Shown here: piece after piece, positions 22,717 through 36,805 of the stretch
How positions within the stretch are numbered: the stretch's first letter is position 1
How the letters are laid out: every line of letters starts with the position of its first letter
DNA from: Bacteroidia bacterium
GTDB lineage: Bacteria > Bacteroidota > Bacteroidia > B-17B0 > Aurantibacillaceae
Length of the DNA: 64,000 nucleotides
Assembly (NCBI GenBank): GCA_018000995.1
Contig: JAGNIU010000002.1
Location: 68,483 to 132,482, forward strand
Direction of reading: 5' to 3'
The notes under the pieces: generated by a model
What the model saw: only the letters and a program-made list of their open reading frames with translations
Database searches by the model: none
What the model was told of the DNA's origin: nothing
Position numbers and translations under genes: made by a program

Positions 22717-22858
22717 AACATCCCCCGTCGGCGACTTCGTCGGACGTCCCCTTCGAAGGGGAAATGATTACGTTAGTTTGTACTGTGCTATCTCTCGAAA
22801 GAGGAACATTATCCCTTCGAAGGGGTCGTTCCGCCTAAAGGCGGAATGGGGGATGTTA
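22717..22858. repeat. Family A composite repeat (inverted ends ACATCCCCC...GGGGGATGT)
   Basis: The 308-bp gap before the TonB receptor gene holds this element. Left half: ACATCCCCC, a GTCGGCGACTTCGTCGGAC hairpin, then CCCCTTCGAAGGGG. Right half: CCCTTCGAAGGGG, CCGCCTAAAGGCGG, then GGGGGATGTT. The two halves face each other across about 47 bases of unrelated sequence. The right end (GATGTTA) includes the stop codon of the 22856 gene. Nothing else gene-like is seen in the gap. Confidence 0.8.
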
Positions 22859-24546: not shown

Positions 24547-24609
24547 TTCTCCCCTTTTTTAAAGGGAGACAGCCATCATCCGCCTGAGGCGGATTGGCAG
24601 AGGGGTCTA
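24547..24609. repeat. Family A palindromic repeat, single half-unit
   Basis: CTCCCCTTTTTTAAAGGGAG forms a hairpin, followed by CCGCC-TGA-GGCGG and then GGCAGAGGGGTC. It fills the gap between the ECF sigma gene and the next gene upstream, whose TAG stop lies at the right edge of the repeat. Confidence 0.7.
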
Positions 24610-25191
24610 CTTTTTACATTTAAAATCGTTACAAGCTTTATCCAAACTCTTCCAAACCTCATGTGTGTAAAGCTGAGGCGATAATTTAAAAAAGACAAAC
24701 GTTTTATCTTCACCCTTACAAGTGGTTAAACGAATTTTGTAATTCAGCGTCATTGGTTTTTGTGACATATAATCTAACATGTAAACTGTACCTTCAAAAC
24801 AAGCTTCGTAATCGCTAAACGTTTTTTCTACTTTATTTTTTACGACTACAGGAATTAATTTTTCTCTTGGCACAGATTTAGTGGCGGCGGCGAGACCTTC
24901 GTAATAAATTTTCAAATGACTTTCGAGGGTTTTAGCATCTATTTTTTGTTTGCCGTCTAAATACCATAAAAAAGTATAGCTCCAATAAGCATCACTAGTT
25001 GCTTTCGACCAACCCGGCACGAAACGAATTTCTTCAATACCCTTGTAAGGAATTTCAGGCGCAAAACTTATTGGGAAAGGAATTTTTTCTGTTCCCCAAC
25101 CTGTTGGAACCGGAAAATCGTAAGGCGTCTCCATTTCCTGTGCGGAAAGGGATAATGTAAACAAACTCAGTACTAGTATAAAAGTCTTCAT
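24607..25191 (-). CDS. Small secreted protein of unknown function
   Basis: A 194-residue protein starting at the ATG at 25191, which gives a signal peptide ending about 'TLSLSAQ'. The frame stays open upstream to 25356, but that part is translated family A repeat ('SPLTRGSGSEADEGV') and has no coding character. The mature protein contains 'IRFVPGWSKATSDAYWSYTF' and 'LESHLKIYYEGLAAATKS', and its pattern of alternating hydrophobics suggests a lipocalin-like or alpha/beta fold. I recognise no family. It is flanked by repeats on both sides, with the stop codon at the edge of one, and is not obviously in an operon. Confidence 0.75.
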   Translation of the reverse strand: MKTFILVLSLFTLSLSAQEMETPYDFPVPTGWGTEKIPFPISFAPEIPYKGIEEIRFVPGWSKATSDAYWSYTFLWYLDGKQKIDAKTLESHLKIYYEGLAAATKSVPREKLIPVVVKNKVEKTFSDYEACFEGTVYMLDYMSQKPMTLNYKIRLTTCKGEDKTFVFFKLSPQLYTHEVWKSLDKACNDFKCKK

Positions 25192-25285
25192 TCTTTTAAA
25201 ATCAGGTTCTTTCCCTATGCAATGCAGGATATGCTGGAAAGGTACAAAAGAAATGATGTTTTTTTTGGGTACGGGTGTTATTCGG

Positions 25286-25485
25286 CTGCACATACAAACC
25301 CCCTCGTCAGCTTCGCTGCCACTCCCCCTTGTTAAGGGGGAGAAATATTTATTCATACAAAAGAGATTTCTACTAAGATAATCAGAGCGTTTATGATTTC
25401 ATACCGAATAAACTCCTTATAACACGCGAAATATTTTCTCCCCTTACCAAGGGGAGATGTCACAAAGTGACAGAGGGGTTTGCGA
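25286..25485. repeat. Family A composite repeat, copy 1 of the CAAACCCC type
   Basis: Outer ends are inverted (CAAACCCCCTC ... GAGGGGTTTGC). The left half is GTCAGCTTCGCTGCCAC then CTCCCCCTTGTTAAGGGGGAG; the right half is CTCCCCTTACCAAGGGGAG then TGTCACAAAGTGACA. About 90 bases of AT-rich, unrelated sequence lie between the halves. The same two halves occur at 27668-27862 around a different spacer. Confidence 0.85.
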
Positions 25486-25805: not shown

Positions 25806-25862
25806 ACACATTCCCCCTTTTAAGGGGGACGTCCGACGAAGTCGCTGACGGGGGGATGTCCA
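25806..25862. repeat. Family A half-unit left of the DUF559 gene
   Basis: CCCCCTTTTAAGGGGG hairpin, then GTCCGACGAAGTCGCTGAC, then GGGGGGATGTCC. It is an inverted relative of the left part of 22717-22858. With the element at 26300-26426 it brackets the DUF559 gene. Confidence 0.8.
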
Positions 25863-25920
25863 TTTTGTACCAACAAGCGAAATGCTACGAAATATAGCAA
25901 GGAAATTTTTCCTCGTAATA

Positions 25921-25928
25921 TAATTTTG
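25921..25928 (+). promoter_or_regulatory. -7 promoter box before the DUF559 gene
   Basis: TAATTTTG fits the Bacteroidota -7 consensus TAnnTTTG and ends 5 bases before the ATG at 25934, implying a leaderless or very short-leader mRNA. No TTG is seen at -33. Confidence 0.4.
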
Positions 25929-25933
25929 TGTTT

Positions 25934-26320
25934 ATGAAAAACAAACTCATTCCTTACAACCCACACTTGAAAGAATACGCCAGAAAACTACGGAAAGCCG
26001 GTGTTTTATCGGAAGTGCTTTTATGGAAAGCAATAAGAAGAAAAAGTTTAGGCATTGAGTTTCACCGTCAAGTTCCTATTGATAATTACATTGTTGATTT
26101 TTATTGTCACGAATTAATGTTGGTGATTGAAGTGGATGGAAGTATTCACGAATTGGAGGATGTGAAACTGAATGACATTAAAAGACAGAAAAGATTGGAA
26201 TCGTTTGGAATAAAATTTATTCGTTTCGAGGATTTTGATGTGAAACATAATTTGGAGTTTGTTCTCCGTGATTTGCGGGCGTTGGTGGAGGAGCTCAAGG
26301 ACATCCCCCGCTCCACCTAA
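25934..26320 (+). CDS. DUF559 domain nuclease-like protein, bracketed by family A repeats
   Basis: A 128-residue protein of the DUF559 family, which has a Vsr/PD-(D/E)XK endonuclease-like fold. The core is visible: 'EVLLWKAIRRKSLGIEFHRQ', 'PIDNYIVDFYC', 'LVIEVDGSIHE' (acidic residues of the putative active site) and 'RLESFGIKFIRFEDFDV'. The ATG at 25934 is preferred to an in-frame GTG at 25928 because the GTG overlaps the -7 box. The last residues ('DIPRST') and the TAA stop are encoded by the downstream family A element, and the stop lies in the loop of a CCACC-TAAA-GGTGG hairpin. A repeat half also lies 70 bases upstream. DNA cleavage is predicted from the family, and a role in repeat mobilisation is inference. 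Confidence 0.85.
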   Translation: MKNKLIPYNPHLKEYARKLRKAGVLSEVLLWKAIRRKSLGIEFHRQVPIDNYIVDFYCHELMLVIEVDGSIHELEDVKLNDIKRQKRLESFGIKFIRFEDFDVKHNLEFVLRDLRALVEELKDIPRST

Positions 26321-26426
26321 AGGTGGACCGACCCCTTCGAAGGGGTAATGTTCCTATCCGTAACGAACGCAAAAATTGCCCCGCCTTAGGCGGGGCCGTC
26401 CGACGAAGTCGCTGACGGGGGATGTT
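26300..26426. repeat. Family A composite repeat at the 3' end of the DUF559 gene
   Basis: Inverted ends ACATCCCCCG ... CGGGGGATGT. The left half has CCACC-TAAA-GGTGG and CCCCTTCGAAGGGG. The right half has GCCCCGCCTTAGGCGGGGC and GTCCGACGAAGTCGCTGAC. About 25 bases of unrelated sequence lie between. The left half contains the DUF559 stop codon, and the right half ends just before the convergent propeller gene stop. Confidence 0.85.
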
Positions 26427-27561: not shown

Positions 27562-27667
27562 TTGAGAATTGCTTTTGCTGTGGAATGCAGAATGTGGCGG
27601 AAAGGTACAAAAATTAGGAGTTAGGATTTAGGAGGTTAGGATATAGAGGGTTATTGTTGTGTGTGAT

Positions 27668-27863
27668 TACCCCCTCGTCAGCTTCGCTGCCACTCCCCCT
27701 TGTTAAGGGGGAGAAATATAGCGTGTCTTTAACTAAATTTTGGGCAAAACGATTTTTTCTTTGTTAAGAGAGGGTACTAATGCCTCCTGAACTAAATTTG
27801 GAGCCCGTAAAATTTTCTCCCCTTACCAAGGGGAGATGTCACAAAGTGACAGAGGGGTTTTAC
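27668..27863. repeat. Family A composite repeat, copy 2 of the CAAACCCC type
   Basis: The halves match 25286-25485 almost base for base (CCCCTCGTCAGCTTCGCTGC..., CTCCCCCTTGTTAAGGGGGAG; CTCCCCTTACCAAGGGGAG, TGTCACAAAGTGACA), but the central ~95 bases are unrelated. It occupies most of the 446-bp gap 27562-28007 between divergent genes. Apart from this, the gap shows no feature I can support. Confidence 0.85.
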
Positions 27864-32737: not shown

Positions 32738-35359
32738 CTAATAAGGATCTACGTCAATTTGAACACGGAAGTTTTCATCACGGTAGTTTTGATGTAAGTT
32801 GTTTATTTCTGAAGTTAAAATGTGCCTCACATTCTGCGGGCCTAAAGATTTATCAATCTTTAAAATAATGCGTTTGTAGTAGTTGTTTTTTATTTTGCTT
32901 ACTAAGGGGAATTGCGGACCTAATAAATCTTTTGCAAAGGTGCCTCTTAAGCGTTTGGCTAATTCTTCGCTCATGTTGTTTACCAGGTTTACATCTTTGG
33001 CTACTACACTTAACTGTATGAGGCGCGAGTAAGGCGGGTAATGGTATTGCTTGCGCTCTTGTAATTGGTTGTTGTAAAACAATTTTAAATCGTCATTTAT
33101 TACATATTGTATTACCGGGTGCGTGGGCTGCAAGGTTTGTATAAATACTTTTCCTTGCTTGTGTTTACGTCCTGCCCTTCCACTCACCTGCGTTATTAAC
33201 TGGTAACCCCTCTCGTGCGAGCGGAAATCAGGAAAGGAAAATAAAGAATCAGCATTTAAAATTCCTACCACACTTACATGGTCAAAATCCAAACCTTTCG
33301 TCACCATTTGCGTGCCAATTAAAATATCGATGTTCTGTTCTTCAAAATCATCTATAATTTGTTTGTAGGCATATTTACTCCGCGTAGTATCCAAATCCAT
33401 ACGCGCAATTTTAGCATCGGGAAATAAAATTTCAATTTCTTCCTCTATCTTCTCTGTTCCCATGCCTTTGTAGCGTAAATCATTATGTCCACAAGCCGCA
33501 CAAGCACTCGGTGGCGGAATAGTATACCCGCAATAATGACAAGTTAACTTATTGGAATGCTTATGATAAATCAACGACACATCACATTGCGTACAATGCG
33601 GAATCCAACCGCAAGAAGAACATTCAGTATAAGGCGCAAAGCCTCGTCGGTTTTGGAATAAAATAATTTGTTCTTTGTTTTTGAGAGCGGTTTTTATGGC
33701 TTCGTGCAAAGGGTGCGTGAGGATGGATTTATTCTTCACGTAAGTGCCTTCGACAAGCTCAGGCACCGGGTTGTGTTGTTCAGACACCGGATGTTCTTGT
33801 GCTCCCGGATCTTCGGTGGCTGAGCTTGTCGAAGCCACCGACTGCTTAATATCGCAAATAACAGTTTCATTCGCCGCCCCATCGGTAAAACGTTTATTCA
33901 ATTCAATTAAACCATATTTACCGGTTGCAGCATTATTGTATGTCTCCAGGGAAGGTGTGGCAGAACCTAATAAAACTTTACAATTATGCAGCGTAGATAA
34001 ATAAATAGCAGCATCACGTGCGTGATAACGTGGTGCGGGGTCGTGTTGTTTGTAAGAGTAATCGTGTTCTTCGTCGATGATGATTAAACCCAAATTCGCA
34101 TAAGGCAAAAACAAAGCTGAGCGTGCGCCCATTACTATGCTGTAAGTATTTTCTCCGGTGTTATTTAAAACGTTGTTCCAAATTTCTACCCGTTCGTTCT
34201 CGCTGAATTTAGAATGGTATACTCCTACTTTATCGCCGAAGTAAGTCCGCATTCGGGTGATGAGTTGCGTCGTTAAAGCAATTTCAGGAAGAAGAAATAA
34301 AACTTGTTGTCCGTTAGCAATAGTTTCCTCAATCAGTTTCGCATAAATTTCCGTCTTACCCGAACCTGTAACCCCATGCAACAAACTAACCGAATGTTTT
34401 TCGAAGGCCGTTTTAATTTCGGTGTAGGCTGCTTTTTGTTCTTTGGTAAGATTCTTTTTATGGGTTTCAGAATTCGTGAATTGTAAACGCCCTATTTCAA
34501 ATTTCTCTTCTGTGAAAATCCCTTTCTTTACAAGAGCATTAATTGCAGCGGCATCACATTTCTTTGTAATCTCTCCCTTTGGAACCCAATTGTCACCATT
34601 CGAAGACGCGCTGTCATCCTGACGGTCCGAAGGACCCTTATCAGGATCTCTTTTATTCGTTTTTGCCAAATGCAAAAACAATAAAAGCGCCTCCGCTTGT
34701 TTGAAAGCCTTCGTCTCCAATTTATCCAACAGCTCTTTTAATTTCGTTTCGTTTTTATATTCTGTGTTTAGTTTCACAAACGAAAGCAATTTCGGCTTGT
34801 ACTTATCCTTCACCTCCTCATAAACAAGAATCGCGCCCTTCTTAATTAAATCATTCACCGTTTTGTGAATGGATTTTATTTTTAGAATTTTGCTGACGTC
34901 TTCAAAACTCAACGTATCATTATGATGCAGCGCATCAATAATTAAATGTTCTTTCTCAGAAAACAAACTGTGGTCACTCTCCTCGAAATTAAAATCAGGA
35001 TTCAATTGAATATTAGCAACAGAACTTAATTTGAGTGCAGAAGGCAAAGCCGCATTCATTACTTCACCCGGACCGCACATATAATAATACGCCATCCAAT
35101 CCCAAAACGTTAATTGCTTTTCGAGAACGATAGGTTTATCATCAATCACTGAATCGATGTACTTCGCCACATATTCCGTCGGCGCTTTATCATGAACTTT
35201 AGAAACTATTGCCGAATAAAATTTCGATTTCCCGAATTGAACTAGAACACGTTTTCCTAAATCCACCTCATCGTTCAATTCCACAGGCACACGATAGGTG
35301 TACTTTTGCGGTACAGCCAAAGGCACTATGACATCAACAAATAAAGTGGTGCGCTCCAT
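32738..35359 (-). CDS. priA: Primosomal replication-restart helicase PriA, with two repeat-derived insertions
   Basis: An 873-residue PriA. Walker A 'GVTGSGKTEIY' lies at about 329-338, with the DEAH-type box 'IIIDEEHDYSYKQHD', the helicase motif 'GTQMVTKGLDF', and eight zinc-binding cysteines ('CSSCGWIPHCTQC', 'CHYCG', 'CAACG'). The N-terminal 3'-DNA-binding domain begins 'VDVIVPLAVPQKYTYRVP'. It restarts collapsed replication forks by loading the replicative helicase. Two segments do not look like PriA: about 236-252 ('RDPDKGPSDRQDD') and about 507-539 ('VASTSSATEDPG', 'NPVPELVEGT'). Both are translated palindromic repeats, placed in linkers outside the catalytic motifs. The downstream end is convergent with the membrane protein gene, and the methyltransferase gene ends 1 base upstream. 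Confidence 0.95.
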   Translation of the reverse strand: MERTTLFVDVIVPLAVPQKYTYRVPVELNDEVDLGKRVLVQFGKSKFYSAIVSKVHDKAPTEYVAKYIDSVIDDKPIVLEKQLTFWDWMAYYYMCGPGEVMNAALPSALKLSSVANIQLNPDFNFEESDHSLFSEKEHLIIDALHHNDTLSFEDVSKILKIKSIHKTVNDLIKKGAILVYEEVKDKYKPKLLSFVKLNTEYKNETKLKELLDKLETKAFKQAEALLLFLHLAKTNKRDPDKGPSDRQDDSASSNGDNWVPKGEITKKCDAAAINALVKKGIFTEEKFEIGRLQFTNSETHKKNLTKEQKAAYTEIKTAFEKHSVSLLHGVTGSGKTEIYAKLIEETIANGQQVLFLLPEIALTTQLITRMRTYFGDKVGVYHSKFSENERVEIWNNVLNNTGENTYSIVMGARSALFLPYANLGLIIIDEEHDYSYKQHDPAPRYHARDAAIYLSTLHNCKVLLGSATPSLETYNNAATGKYGLIELNKRFTDGAANETVICDIKQSVASTSSATEDPGAQEHPVSEQHNPVPELVEGTYVKNKSILTHPLHEAIKTALKNKEQIILFQNRRGFAPYTECSSCGWIPHCTQCDVSLIYHKHSNKLTCHYCGYTIPPPSACAACGHNDLRYKGMGTEKIEEEIEILFPDAKIARMDLDTTRSKYAYKQIIDDFEEQNIDILIGTQMVTKGLDFDHVSVVGILNADSLFSFPDFRSHERGYQLITQVSGRAGRKHKQGKVFIQTLQPTHPVIQYVINDDLKLFYNNQLQERKQYHYPPYSRLIQLSVVAKDVNLVNNMSEELAKRLRGTFAKDLLGPQFPLVSKIKNNYYKRIILKIDKSLGPQNVRHILTSEINNLHQNYRDENFRVQIDVDPY
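33744..33840. repeat. Family B inverted repeat pair inside priA
   Basis: GTGCCTTCGACAAGCTCAGG... (33744-33769) and its inverted partner ...CTGAGCTTGTCGAAGCCACC (33814-33840) flank a 44-base spacer. Same unit as the copies near 36.1-36.8 kb. It is read in frame as part of PriA residues about 507-539. Confidence 0.9.
34612..34650. repeat. Family C palindromic repeat inside priA
   Basis: ATCCTGA ... TCAGGAT outer stem encloses GGTCC-gaa-GGACC. It encodes the 'RDPDKGPSDRQDD' segment of PriA. Only one copy is seen in this window. Confidence 0.7.
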
Positions 35360-36114: not shown

Positions 36115-36345
36115 GTCGGTGGCTTCGACAAGCTCAGCCACCGACCTGTTTTTAAAAGAGTTTTGCTCCTTTCCGGATGGTTTCGACAAGCTCAACCACC
36201 GGCATCCGCGTGCTCAACCACCGGCTACATGGAAGTGGCTTCGGCTGCTCTGGAAGCGTTGGTTTCGACAAGCTCAACCACCGCCTGTTTCAAATCATCT
36301 CTTTTTTTAAGTACGTGATTCGGTGCCTGAGCTTGTCGAAGGCAC
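36115..36345. repeat. Family B repeat array upstream of the methyltransferase, running into the GIY-YIG gene
   Basis: Copies at about 36115-36145 (GGTGGCTTCGACAAGCTCAG...), 36177-36201, a partial at 36209-36224, 36260-36285, and an inverted copy at 36320-36345 (CGGTGCCTGAGCTTGTCGAA...). The stems vary (GGTGGCT/AGCCACC, GGTT/AACC, GTGCCT/AGGCAC) around a constant TCGACAAGCTC core. The inverted copy encodes the tail of the GIY-YIG protein. No other gene is seen at 36090-36306. Confidence 0.85.
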
Positions 36346-36654
36346 TGCTTGAAAGCGAGATGTCAAAGGATATTGAGTCCGGTTTTTAGAAAGCAATGGA
36401 AGACCGTCATTACATCCATTTATCAACGCCTCTTTCTTGCTCCTACTCCATCCTTGAACTTGTTTTTCCCTGTAAAAAGCTTCATCAATTCTATCGAATT
36501 TTTTATAGTAAACTAATTCCACCGGCAATCTTTTTCTGGTGTGATTCGCGCCTTCTCCGTTATTATGCTGTTGCATACGAAGATCAAGATCATTCGTGCT
36601 TCCGGTATAATAACTACCGTCACAACATTCTAGTATGTACATATAGCCTTTCAT
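36307..36654 (-). CDS. GIY-YIG family endonuclease (URI type), tail encoded by a family B repeat
   Basis: A 115-residue protein. Residues 1-95 form a complete GIY-YIG domain: 'YMYILECCDGSYYTGST' (the YIL...YTG motif), R26 in 'LDLRMQQHNNG', 'HTRKRLPVELVYYKKF' and catalytic-type E63 in 'AFYREKQVQGWSRSKKEALI'. Proteins of this short URI subfamily are single-domain nucleases of mostly unknown biological role. The last 14 residues ('AVPSTSSGTESRT') are translated family B repeat and lie outside the domain. Further repeat copies lie beyond both ends (36115-36285 and 36725-36800). Nuclease activity is predicted from the family, and a link to the repeats is inference. Confidence 0.88.
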   Translation of the reverse strand: MKGYMYILECCDGSYYTGSTNDLDLRMQQHNNGEGANHTRKRLPVELVYYKKFDRIDEAFYREKQVQGWSRSKKEALINGCNDGLPLLSKNRTQYPLTSRFQAVPSTSSGTESRT

Positions 36655-36724
36655 AAATACAAAACTATAACCGAAAATGAGGAATGCTTGCTATGAATTG
36701 TAGCATTTTTAAAGAACTCATGGG

Positions 36725-36805
36725 AGTGGCTTCGACAAGCTCAGCCACCGATAAATCGAAGACATAAAAAAAACGGTGCCTGAGCTTGTCGAAGGCACCG
36801 TTTTA
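36725..36805 (-). terminator. Family B inverted repeat pair; its second hairpin serves as terminator of the OmpA/TPR gene
   Basis: A direct copy (36726-36750) and an inverted copy (36774-36800) are separated by 23 bases. The inverted copy forms AAACGGTGCCT ... AGGCACCGTTT. Read on the minus strand it is followed by eight T, so it has the form of an intrinsic terminator 18 bases after the stop of the 36823 gene. Confidence 0.75.

Follow-up and report, generated by a model that had tools for sequence, protein, structure and literature searches.

A DUF559 nuclease gene bracketed by cognate palindromic repeats in a Bacteroidota genome: a candidate nuclease-associated repeat system

Y1 transposases are the enzymes of the REP/RAYT and IS200 systems. 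In REPIN/RAYT, the gene of the Y1 HUH enzyme (PF01797) is flanked by repeats, which occur mainly as inverted pairs and carry a GTAG or CGTC tag by the hairpin. Palindromic repeats like those described below are common in bacterial genomes and, to our knowledge, mostly have no assigned mover. The RAYT enzyme genes within one genome are distinct from each other (PMC3116915). Rickettsia palindromic elements (RPE), of about 150 bp, are in-frame palindromes found in unrelated conserved genes (PMC10969869). Members of the DUF559/Vsr-like nucleases (V.NgoAXIII/XIV, Caulobacter VsrA, 3HRL) have been treated as repair or methylation-linked enzymes, and the gonococcal Vsr enzymes nick T:G mismatches (PMC6116569).

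We analysed a window of 64 kb from a Bacteroidota assembly (G000, 3.6 Mb, 77 contigs), in which a sequence-only reading had described a half-repeat, a promoter box, a DUF559 gene and a composite repeat as one block. The coordinates and hairpins of this layout were found as described (Table 1). The downstream element includes the final codons and the stop of the gene, so that the 3' end does lie within a repeat with the TAA in a hairpin loop, and the 'promoter box' exists as an 18-bp palindrome. In the upstream half-unit, the hairpin TCCCCCTTTTAAGGGGGA is followed by a variable hairpin and then by the tail GGGGGATGT. An alternative GTG start at 25928 is possible for the gene, and its neighbours are housekeeping genes or genes of no known function. 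The gene had also been described as embedded in a pair of inverted repeats: inverted bracketing is indeed far above chance (see below), but the block is made of a half-unit, the gene and a complete element, and the gene is not inside one element.

Table 1. Positions, in the window, of the nuclease genes, repeats and operator described in the text
Feature	Position	Strand	Details
DUF559 (PF04480) Vsr/EDxHD-fold nuclease gene	25934..26320	+	128 aa from ATG 25934; Pfam E=8e-27
Family A right half-unit, upstream of the DUF559 gene	25806..25859	+	Hairpin 25812-25829, variable hairpin, tail GGGGGATGT
18-bp palindromic operator TGCTACGAAATATAGCAA	25883..25900	+	SOS/LexA-type by comparison with recA, ruvB, dinB, radA
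Complete family A element (L-mid-R), downstream of the DUF559 gene	26301..26425	.	ACATCCCCC ... GGGGGATGT
Hairpin TCCACC-TAAA-GGTGGA	26312..26327	.	DUF559 stop TAA 26318-26320 in loop
Complete family A miniature element, without nuclease	22718..22856	.	139 nt
Complete family B miniature element	25297..25481	.	185 nt
Complete family B miniature element	27668..27860	.	193 nt
GIY-YIG nuclease domain	36433..36651	-	Between GAGCTTGTCGAA-type palindromes (36124-36794)
Inverted GAGCTTGTCGAA repeat pair in priA reading frame (32738-35359, -)	33744..33833	-	Read as ...NPVPELVEG...

Two repeat families lie near the window DUF559 gene. Family A (ACATCCCCC...GGGGGATGT) brackets this gene; family B ((A)CCCCCTC...GAGGGGT) does so for the second DUF559 gene of G000, which lies on contig C45 (L002). 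The 'six more copies of the same family' reported nearby are six half-units forming three complete elements; only the element at 22718-22856 is of family A, the other two being of family B. The window contains three L-mid-R elements and the element that overlaps the gene end, and further copies are dispersed in the genome; the miniature elements without a gene measure 126-193 nt in the window. Eight of the nine CCCC-armed palindromes with a stem of at least 7 present in the 64 kb fall at 22.7-27.9 kb. Genome-wide, about six family A cores and, at two mismatches or fewer, 23 family B hairpins were counted. No Rfam match at the gathering threshold was obtained for the repeats within the 64 kb window. 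For the window copy, neither an insertion event nor a target-site duplication nor an empty site could be resolved, the neighbour gene not being syntenic in the genus.

Two local features of the family B elements were recorded. Both elements are adjoined by 41-nt segments (25209-25249 and 27572-27612, 80% identical), located upstream of two minus-strand genes (GGAAAGGTACAAAA) and representing either a common promoter or a duplicated context. The longest start of the ORF at 24607-25356 extends backwards through a family B element (SPLTRGSGSEADEGV); translation probably begins further inside, at the ATG of MKTFILVL.

Bracketing was measured in 100 related genomes and at 80 named-genome loci. For each DUF559 domain, the 250-nt flanks on either side were compared with each other for inverted similarity at a score threshold of 30, random intervals of the same loci serving as controls. 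Flank-to-flank inverted repeats were observed for 28 of 50 stand-alone copies and 17 of 26 in-frame copies, compared with 0.6% of 2280 random intervals; the stand-alone rate is slightly underestimated, as three of the 50 entries (L001, L004, L005) are the window copy, each time below the threshold. The independent named-genome set gave 50 of 83, compared with 0.5% of 2490 random intervals. Overall, 50-60% of DUF559 genes were bracketed by an inverted pair (random about 0.5%), and CCCC/GGGG hairpin repeats were present within 300 nt of about 75% of DUF559 genes and of 4% of random sites. Flanking by type A repeats was above background (126 of 167 DUF559 domains, compared with 30 of 816 random sites, within 300 nt), a comparison of the kind that the sequence-only reading had proposed, and the contrary case that it had named, DUF559 without type A repeats at that distance, occurred as a minority of about 25% of domains. 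Four of ten plasmid loci (L228, L229, L231, L235) had no bracketing and a fifth (L227) was weak, below the threshold. Flanking repeats extend beyond Bacteroidota to Scalindua, Hydrogenedentota, cyanobacteria, Deinococcus and some alphaproteobacteria, and a near-identical half-unit, TCCCCTCTAAAAAGAGGGGATTAAGGGGTGTGT, was found in Scalindua (L217) and in a Bacteroidota locus (L038).

The bracketing repeats have a defined orientation. With a half-unit taken as a hairpin plus a C- or G-run tail, 35 stand-alone DUF559 copies were R-gene-L and two were L-gene-R, against 0 of 1117 random intervals and 0 of 19 Y1 genes. The two halves of one unit match each other, with a median score of 51 compared with 20.5 for pairs swapped between copies. 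The tail tag GGGG(A)TGT was present in 61 of the 87 half-units of R-gene-L copies, compared with 6.8% of all G-runs in the loci.

The window holds a second nuclease/repeat pairing, that of the GIY-YIG gene at 36433-36651. GIY-YIG genes of relatives were bracketed by a third, GAGCTTGTCGAA-related repeat type in 14 of 27 cases, compared with 0 of 79 controls. When repeat types were tabulated against nucleases, type A repeats were near 0 of 27 GIY-YIG and 2 of 19 Y1 genes (DUF559 and random counts as above), and type B repeats were near 7 DUF559, 10 GIY-YIG and one Y1 gene and 59 of 816 random sites. The pairing with repeat types differed between DUF559 and GIY-YIG (Fisher p=3e-11). It follows that every nuclease family is paired with a repeat of its own. 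In this as in the other comparisons, sequences of one genus are not independent of each other. The window GIY-YIG gene lies among GGTGGCTTCGACAAGCTCAGCCACC-type palindromes (36120-36800), with the box found upstream of DUF559 also upstream of it, and this repeat pair recurs in the priA reading frame.

The number of repeats followed the number of DUF559 genes. A single exact hairpin pattern could not serve across genera because the repeats diverge too fast; it was replaced by a generic half-unit pattern with a reversed-pattern control. Over 100 genomes, half-units minus the control correlated with the DUF559 count (rho 0.58, p=2e-10), whereas the control itself did not (rho -0.03); the median was one repeat in genomes without DUF559 and 21 in those with three or more. 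Part of the correlation is due to the genes' own flanks, since subtracting two repeats per DUF559 gene lowered rho to 0.36 (p=2e-4). DUF559 copies within one genome were divergent (median identity 0.41, maximum 0.73), and 59 of 64 had a closer relative in another genome. No recent amplification of the gene within a genome is therefore visible; it seems that the short elements multiply, the gene itself being acquired by transfer. The proposal of an autonomous master copy with non-autonomous derivatives was not supported in its simple form, given this divergence and the order of parts, R-gene-L for the intergenic genes and L-mid-R for the miniatures; a simple model of an element with a gene inside does not account for R-gene-L.

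The same divergence is compatible with another explanation, in which DUF559 is a free-standing gene for a homing-type endonuclease and lands safely in palindromic repeats that already exist, their spread being due to an unrelated mechanism. The homing-endonuclease-like fold (see below) and the location of the genes between repeats, not in mid-element, fit this explanation as well. Nevertheless, landing within an L-mid-R element would give L-gene-R, the order of two stand-alone copies against 35; bracketing halves match each other far better than they match the halves of other copies; repeat number increases with nuclease number; and the repeat type differs from one nuclease family to the next. 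We consider this explanation unlikely.

A less probable alternative still, and a very unlikely one, is that a Y1 transposase of the RAYT/IS200 type owns the palindromes as ordinary REPs, DUF559 being a passenger or having inserted into them later. G000 does have Y1 genes (three matches), and repeats correlated weakly with the Y1 count (rho 0.33). Genomes with Y1 and without DUF559 had a median of five repeats, and in G041, G062 and G096 repeats accompanied Y1 genes without DUF559, the second contrary case that had been foreseen, which is again a minority; G030 had repeats with neither gene. However, the partial correlation of repeats with Y1 given DUF559 was 0.19 (p=0.05), compared with 0.52 for DUF559 (controlling for Y1 and genome size; p=4e-8 given Y1), and the 13 genomes with DUF559 and without Y1 had a median of eight repeats, which points against Y1 ownership. 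In addition, the palindromes around Y1 genes are different ones, e.g. CCACGACCTTCAGGTCGTGG and AGCTCCGAAGGATT..., and type A repeats are rare near them. On these grounds, Y1/RAYT is disfavoured as the owner of the repeats. Y1 genes with their own bracketing palindromes (CCACGACCTTCAGGTCGTGG and similar) were observed at loci L239, L241, L249-L252 and L255, so that these genomes contain a distinct REP system as well.

About 42 of the 146 DUF559 domains in the 100 genomes (29%) lie in open frames 400 codons or more in length. The frames that were read are mostly in-frame insertions into conserved genes, namely LeuRS (two sites), MetH (two sites), HutU, RecJ, RecG, HsdR, SpoIIE-domain sensors and a CoA-transferase; terminal fusions were found with HisF (Pedobacter) and with a PALP enzyme (Winogradskyella), the model of the HisF-DUF559 fusion being unusable (pLDDT 46). 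The insert ends are palindromic repeats, translated as linkers such as LIPSPSPREKG...SPLLGRGVGGEA. Unlike the intergenic copies, typable internal insertions are mostly L-gene-R, with the exception of HsdR of L201. The host frame stays open through the inserts, whose ends are repeat-coded. Pfam searches of eight in-frame hosts gave no intein model, and no Rfam match at the gathering threshold was obtained in the 64 kb, where no copy is in frame.

The genomes searched each have a single LeuRS copy. Within one genus, its site 1 has no insert in G000, G003, G005 and G007 but has one in G001, G004 and G006. Mapped on a poorly resolved host tree, occupancy of this site takes 11 changes, compared with 11.3 for shuffled labels, and the starred branches force only four; such scattered occupancy is what repeated invasion of a single site would be expected to leave. 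In-frame inserts made of repeats only were found in LeuRS and MetH, and a third LeuRS position, before YDAKEGK, contains several unrelated palindrome families (L167, LeuRS of G017; L170, G004; L028, MetH of G036). The G017 LeuRS carries the repeat-only insert at site 1 and the nuclease form at site 2. The repeat-only inserts and the variety at the third position suggest tolerated insertion loops that are repeatedly used.

In-frame and stand-alone contexts were clustered on the DUF559 tree. The dN/dS ratio was 0.117 for in-frame and 0.110 for stand-alone DUF559, and among in-frame copies the catalytic D, D and H were unchanged in 55 of 55 and the E in 54 of 55. The in-frame nucleases are under purifying selection.

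The AF2 model of the window DUF559 protein had a pLDDT of 92. In Foldseek searches the closest structure was 3HRL, a DUF559 protein of Neisseria (E=2e-6), followed by the catalytic domain of the homing endonuclease I-Bth0305I (3R3P, E=1e-3); the match to Vsr was weaker (1vsr, prob 0.91). The predicted fold is Vsr/EDxHD-homing-endonuclease-like. The conserved residues of the window protein are D55, E66, D68 and H72; D, E, D and H are invariant in the 45-row alignment A2 and kept in nearly all of 169 domains. An identity as a defence nuclease was rejected, as PADLOC gave only weak partial matches to anti-phage defence families (E about 1e-5) and the neighbours are as described above. That DUF559 is a domesticated Vsr-like repair nuclease under SOS control, with the palindromes as substrates or regulatory hairpins without mobility, is most improbable: an operator in common with recA and ruvB, the T:G nicking by gonococcal Vsr enzymes (PMC6116569) and the strong purifying selection would fit, but inverted bracketing, dispersed miniatures and scattered in-frame insertion in essential genes would be left unexplained, and most DUF559 copies have their nearest relatives in other genomes.

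The box TGCTA-N7-TAGCAA is located upstream of both DUF559 genes in G000, and also at 36688-36705, by the window GIY-YIG gene. Genome-wide, 23+18 matches were counted, compared with 5+6 for a reversed control pattern. The box also precedes recA, ruvB, dinB, radA, a YifB/ComM-type gene, a radical SAM gene (PA0069) and three GIY-YIG genes, and one S24-type repressor candidate (G000 C5) is present in the genome. Because the box is common to recA, ruvB, dinB and radA, the DUF559 gene is probably SOS-controlled, through a LexA-type operator. Of 114 stand-alone DUF559 domains, only 5 have the exact pattern upstream; the box is probably specific to a lineage, and SOS control is therefore claimed for G000 and its close relatives only. 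In the Bacteroidota lineage of G000 (e.g. L297, L292, L323, L325), TGCTACAAWTTGTAGCAA is the apparent SOS box, including at RhuM/ORF6N genes and mobile nucleases.

In common with REPIN/RAYT, the DUF559 system has multi-copy palindromes that occur as inverted pairs, an enzyme gene bracketed by cognate repeats and elements clustered beside it, distinct enzyme copies in one genome, as reported for RAYT genes (PMC3116915), and a separate repeat family for each enzyme. It differs first by the enzyme, which is of the PD-(D/E)XK/Vsr fold (PF04480) and not HUH Y1 (PF01797); second by the hairpin and tag, CCCC..GGGG and GGGG(A)TGT instead of GTAG or CGTC; and third by the many copies in frame inside essential genes and by the SOS-type operator. 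Of the claim that the locus is REPIN/RAYT-like with a Vsr-fold nuclease, the anatomy has stood (inverted cognate bracketing, copy-number tracking, the fold, Y1 genes with other palindromes); that DUF559 mobilises the repeats is what we infer from it. I-Bth0305I-type (EDxHD) homing endonucleases have the fold in common with DUF559 (3r3p, E=1e-3), as well as scattered occupancy of one conserved site. In contrast to them, no intron or intein was seen in the window by Rfam or in eight in-frame hosts by Pfam, the DUF559 block stays in frame with repeat-coded linkers, its ends are palindromic repeats, and repeat-only miniatures exist. As for RPE, palindromes in frame in conserved genes are found here too, in the repeat-only insert at site 1 of the G017 LeuRS and in many nuclease-bearing inserts; that source does not describe RPE with a nuclease of their own (PMC10969869), whereas the in-frame inserts here include the intact nuclease. 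The DUF559/Vsr-like repair nucleases have in common with this system the fold family and a link to DNA damage, known members being treated as repair or methylation-linked enzymes. By the tests made, the system appears to belong neither to REPIN/RAYT, which its logic resembles, nor to the homing endonucleases, which its chemistry would resemble.

We think it likely that the window contains one unit of a nuclease-associated palindromic-repeat system, an SOS-regulated DUF559 gene bracketed by cognate half-units, with miniatures that are presumably moved in trans. In such a system, a small DUF559 endonuclease would be made upon DNA damage and would nick or cut at its own repeat or at a target, and RecA-dependent repair would copy the repeat element into the break. 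For the intragenic lineage, what is copied into the break would be the entire block of repeat, nuclease and repeat, in frame and unspliced. Short two-ended elements lacking the gene lie dispersed in the genome, presumably moved in trans, and a circular or tandem intermediate would yield both the R-gene-L and the L-mid-R orders.

A wider proposal is possible, although we hold it only tentatively: DUF559 and, independently, GIY-YIG nucleases may propagate their own repeats in trans as a general class of SOS-induced selfish systems apart from Y1/RAYT, some lineages of which would home into fixed loops of essential genes, as in-frame insertions that are translated and not spliced. No link of DUF559 to repeats or mobility was found in the open-access part of the literature naming DUF559 (subscription journals lay outside the search), and the novelty of the system is judged on that text alone. 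Palindromic repeats served by a dedicated enzyme are known, and there is a substantial chance that the DUF559 system is a separate class. The enzyme and its repeats, lodged together and still readable in essential genes, point to a selfish genetic element of a widespread kind that has apparently not been described. If DUF559 and GIY-YIG nucleases do move or maintain their repeats, a large class of orphan repeats would gain a testable engine, and an uncharacterised domain family, DUF559, would gain a role; essential enzymes such as leucyl-tRNA synthetase would be recurrent hosts of translated nuclease insertions, and the SOS-type operator would offer a direct experimental handle.
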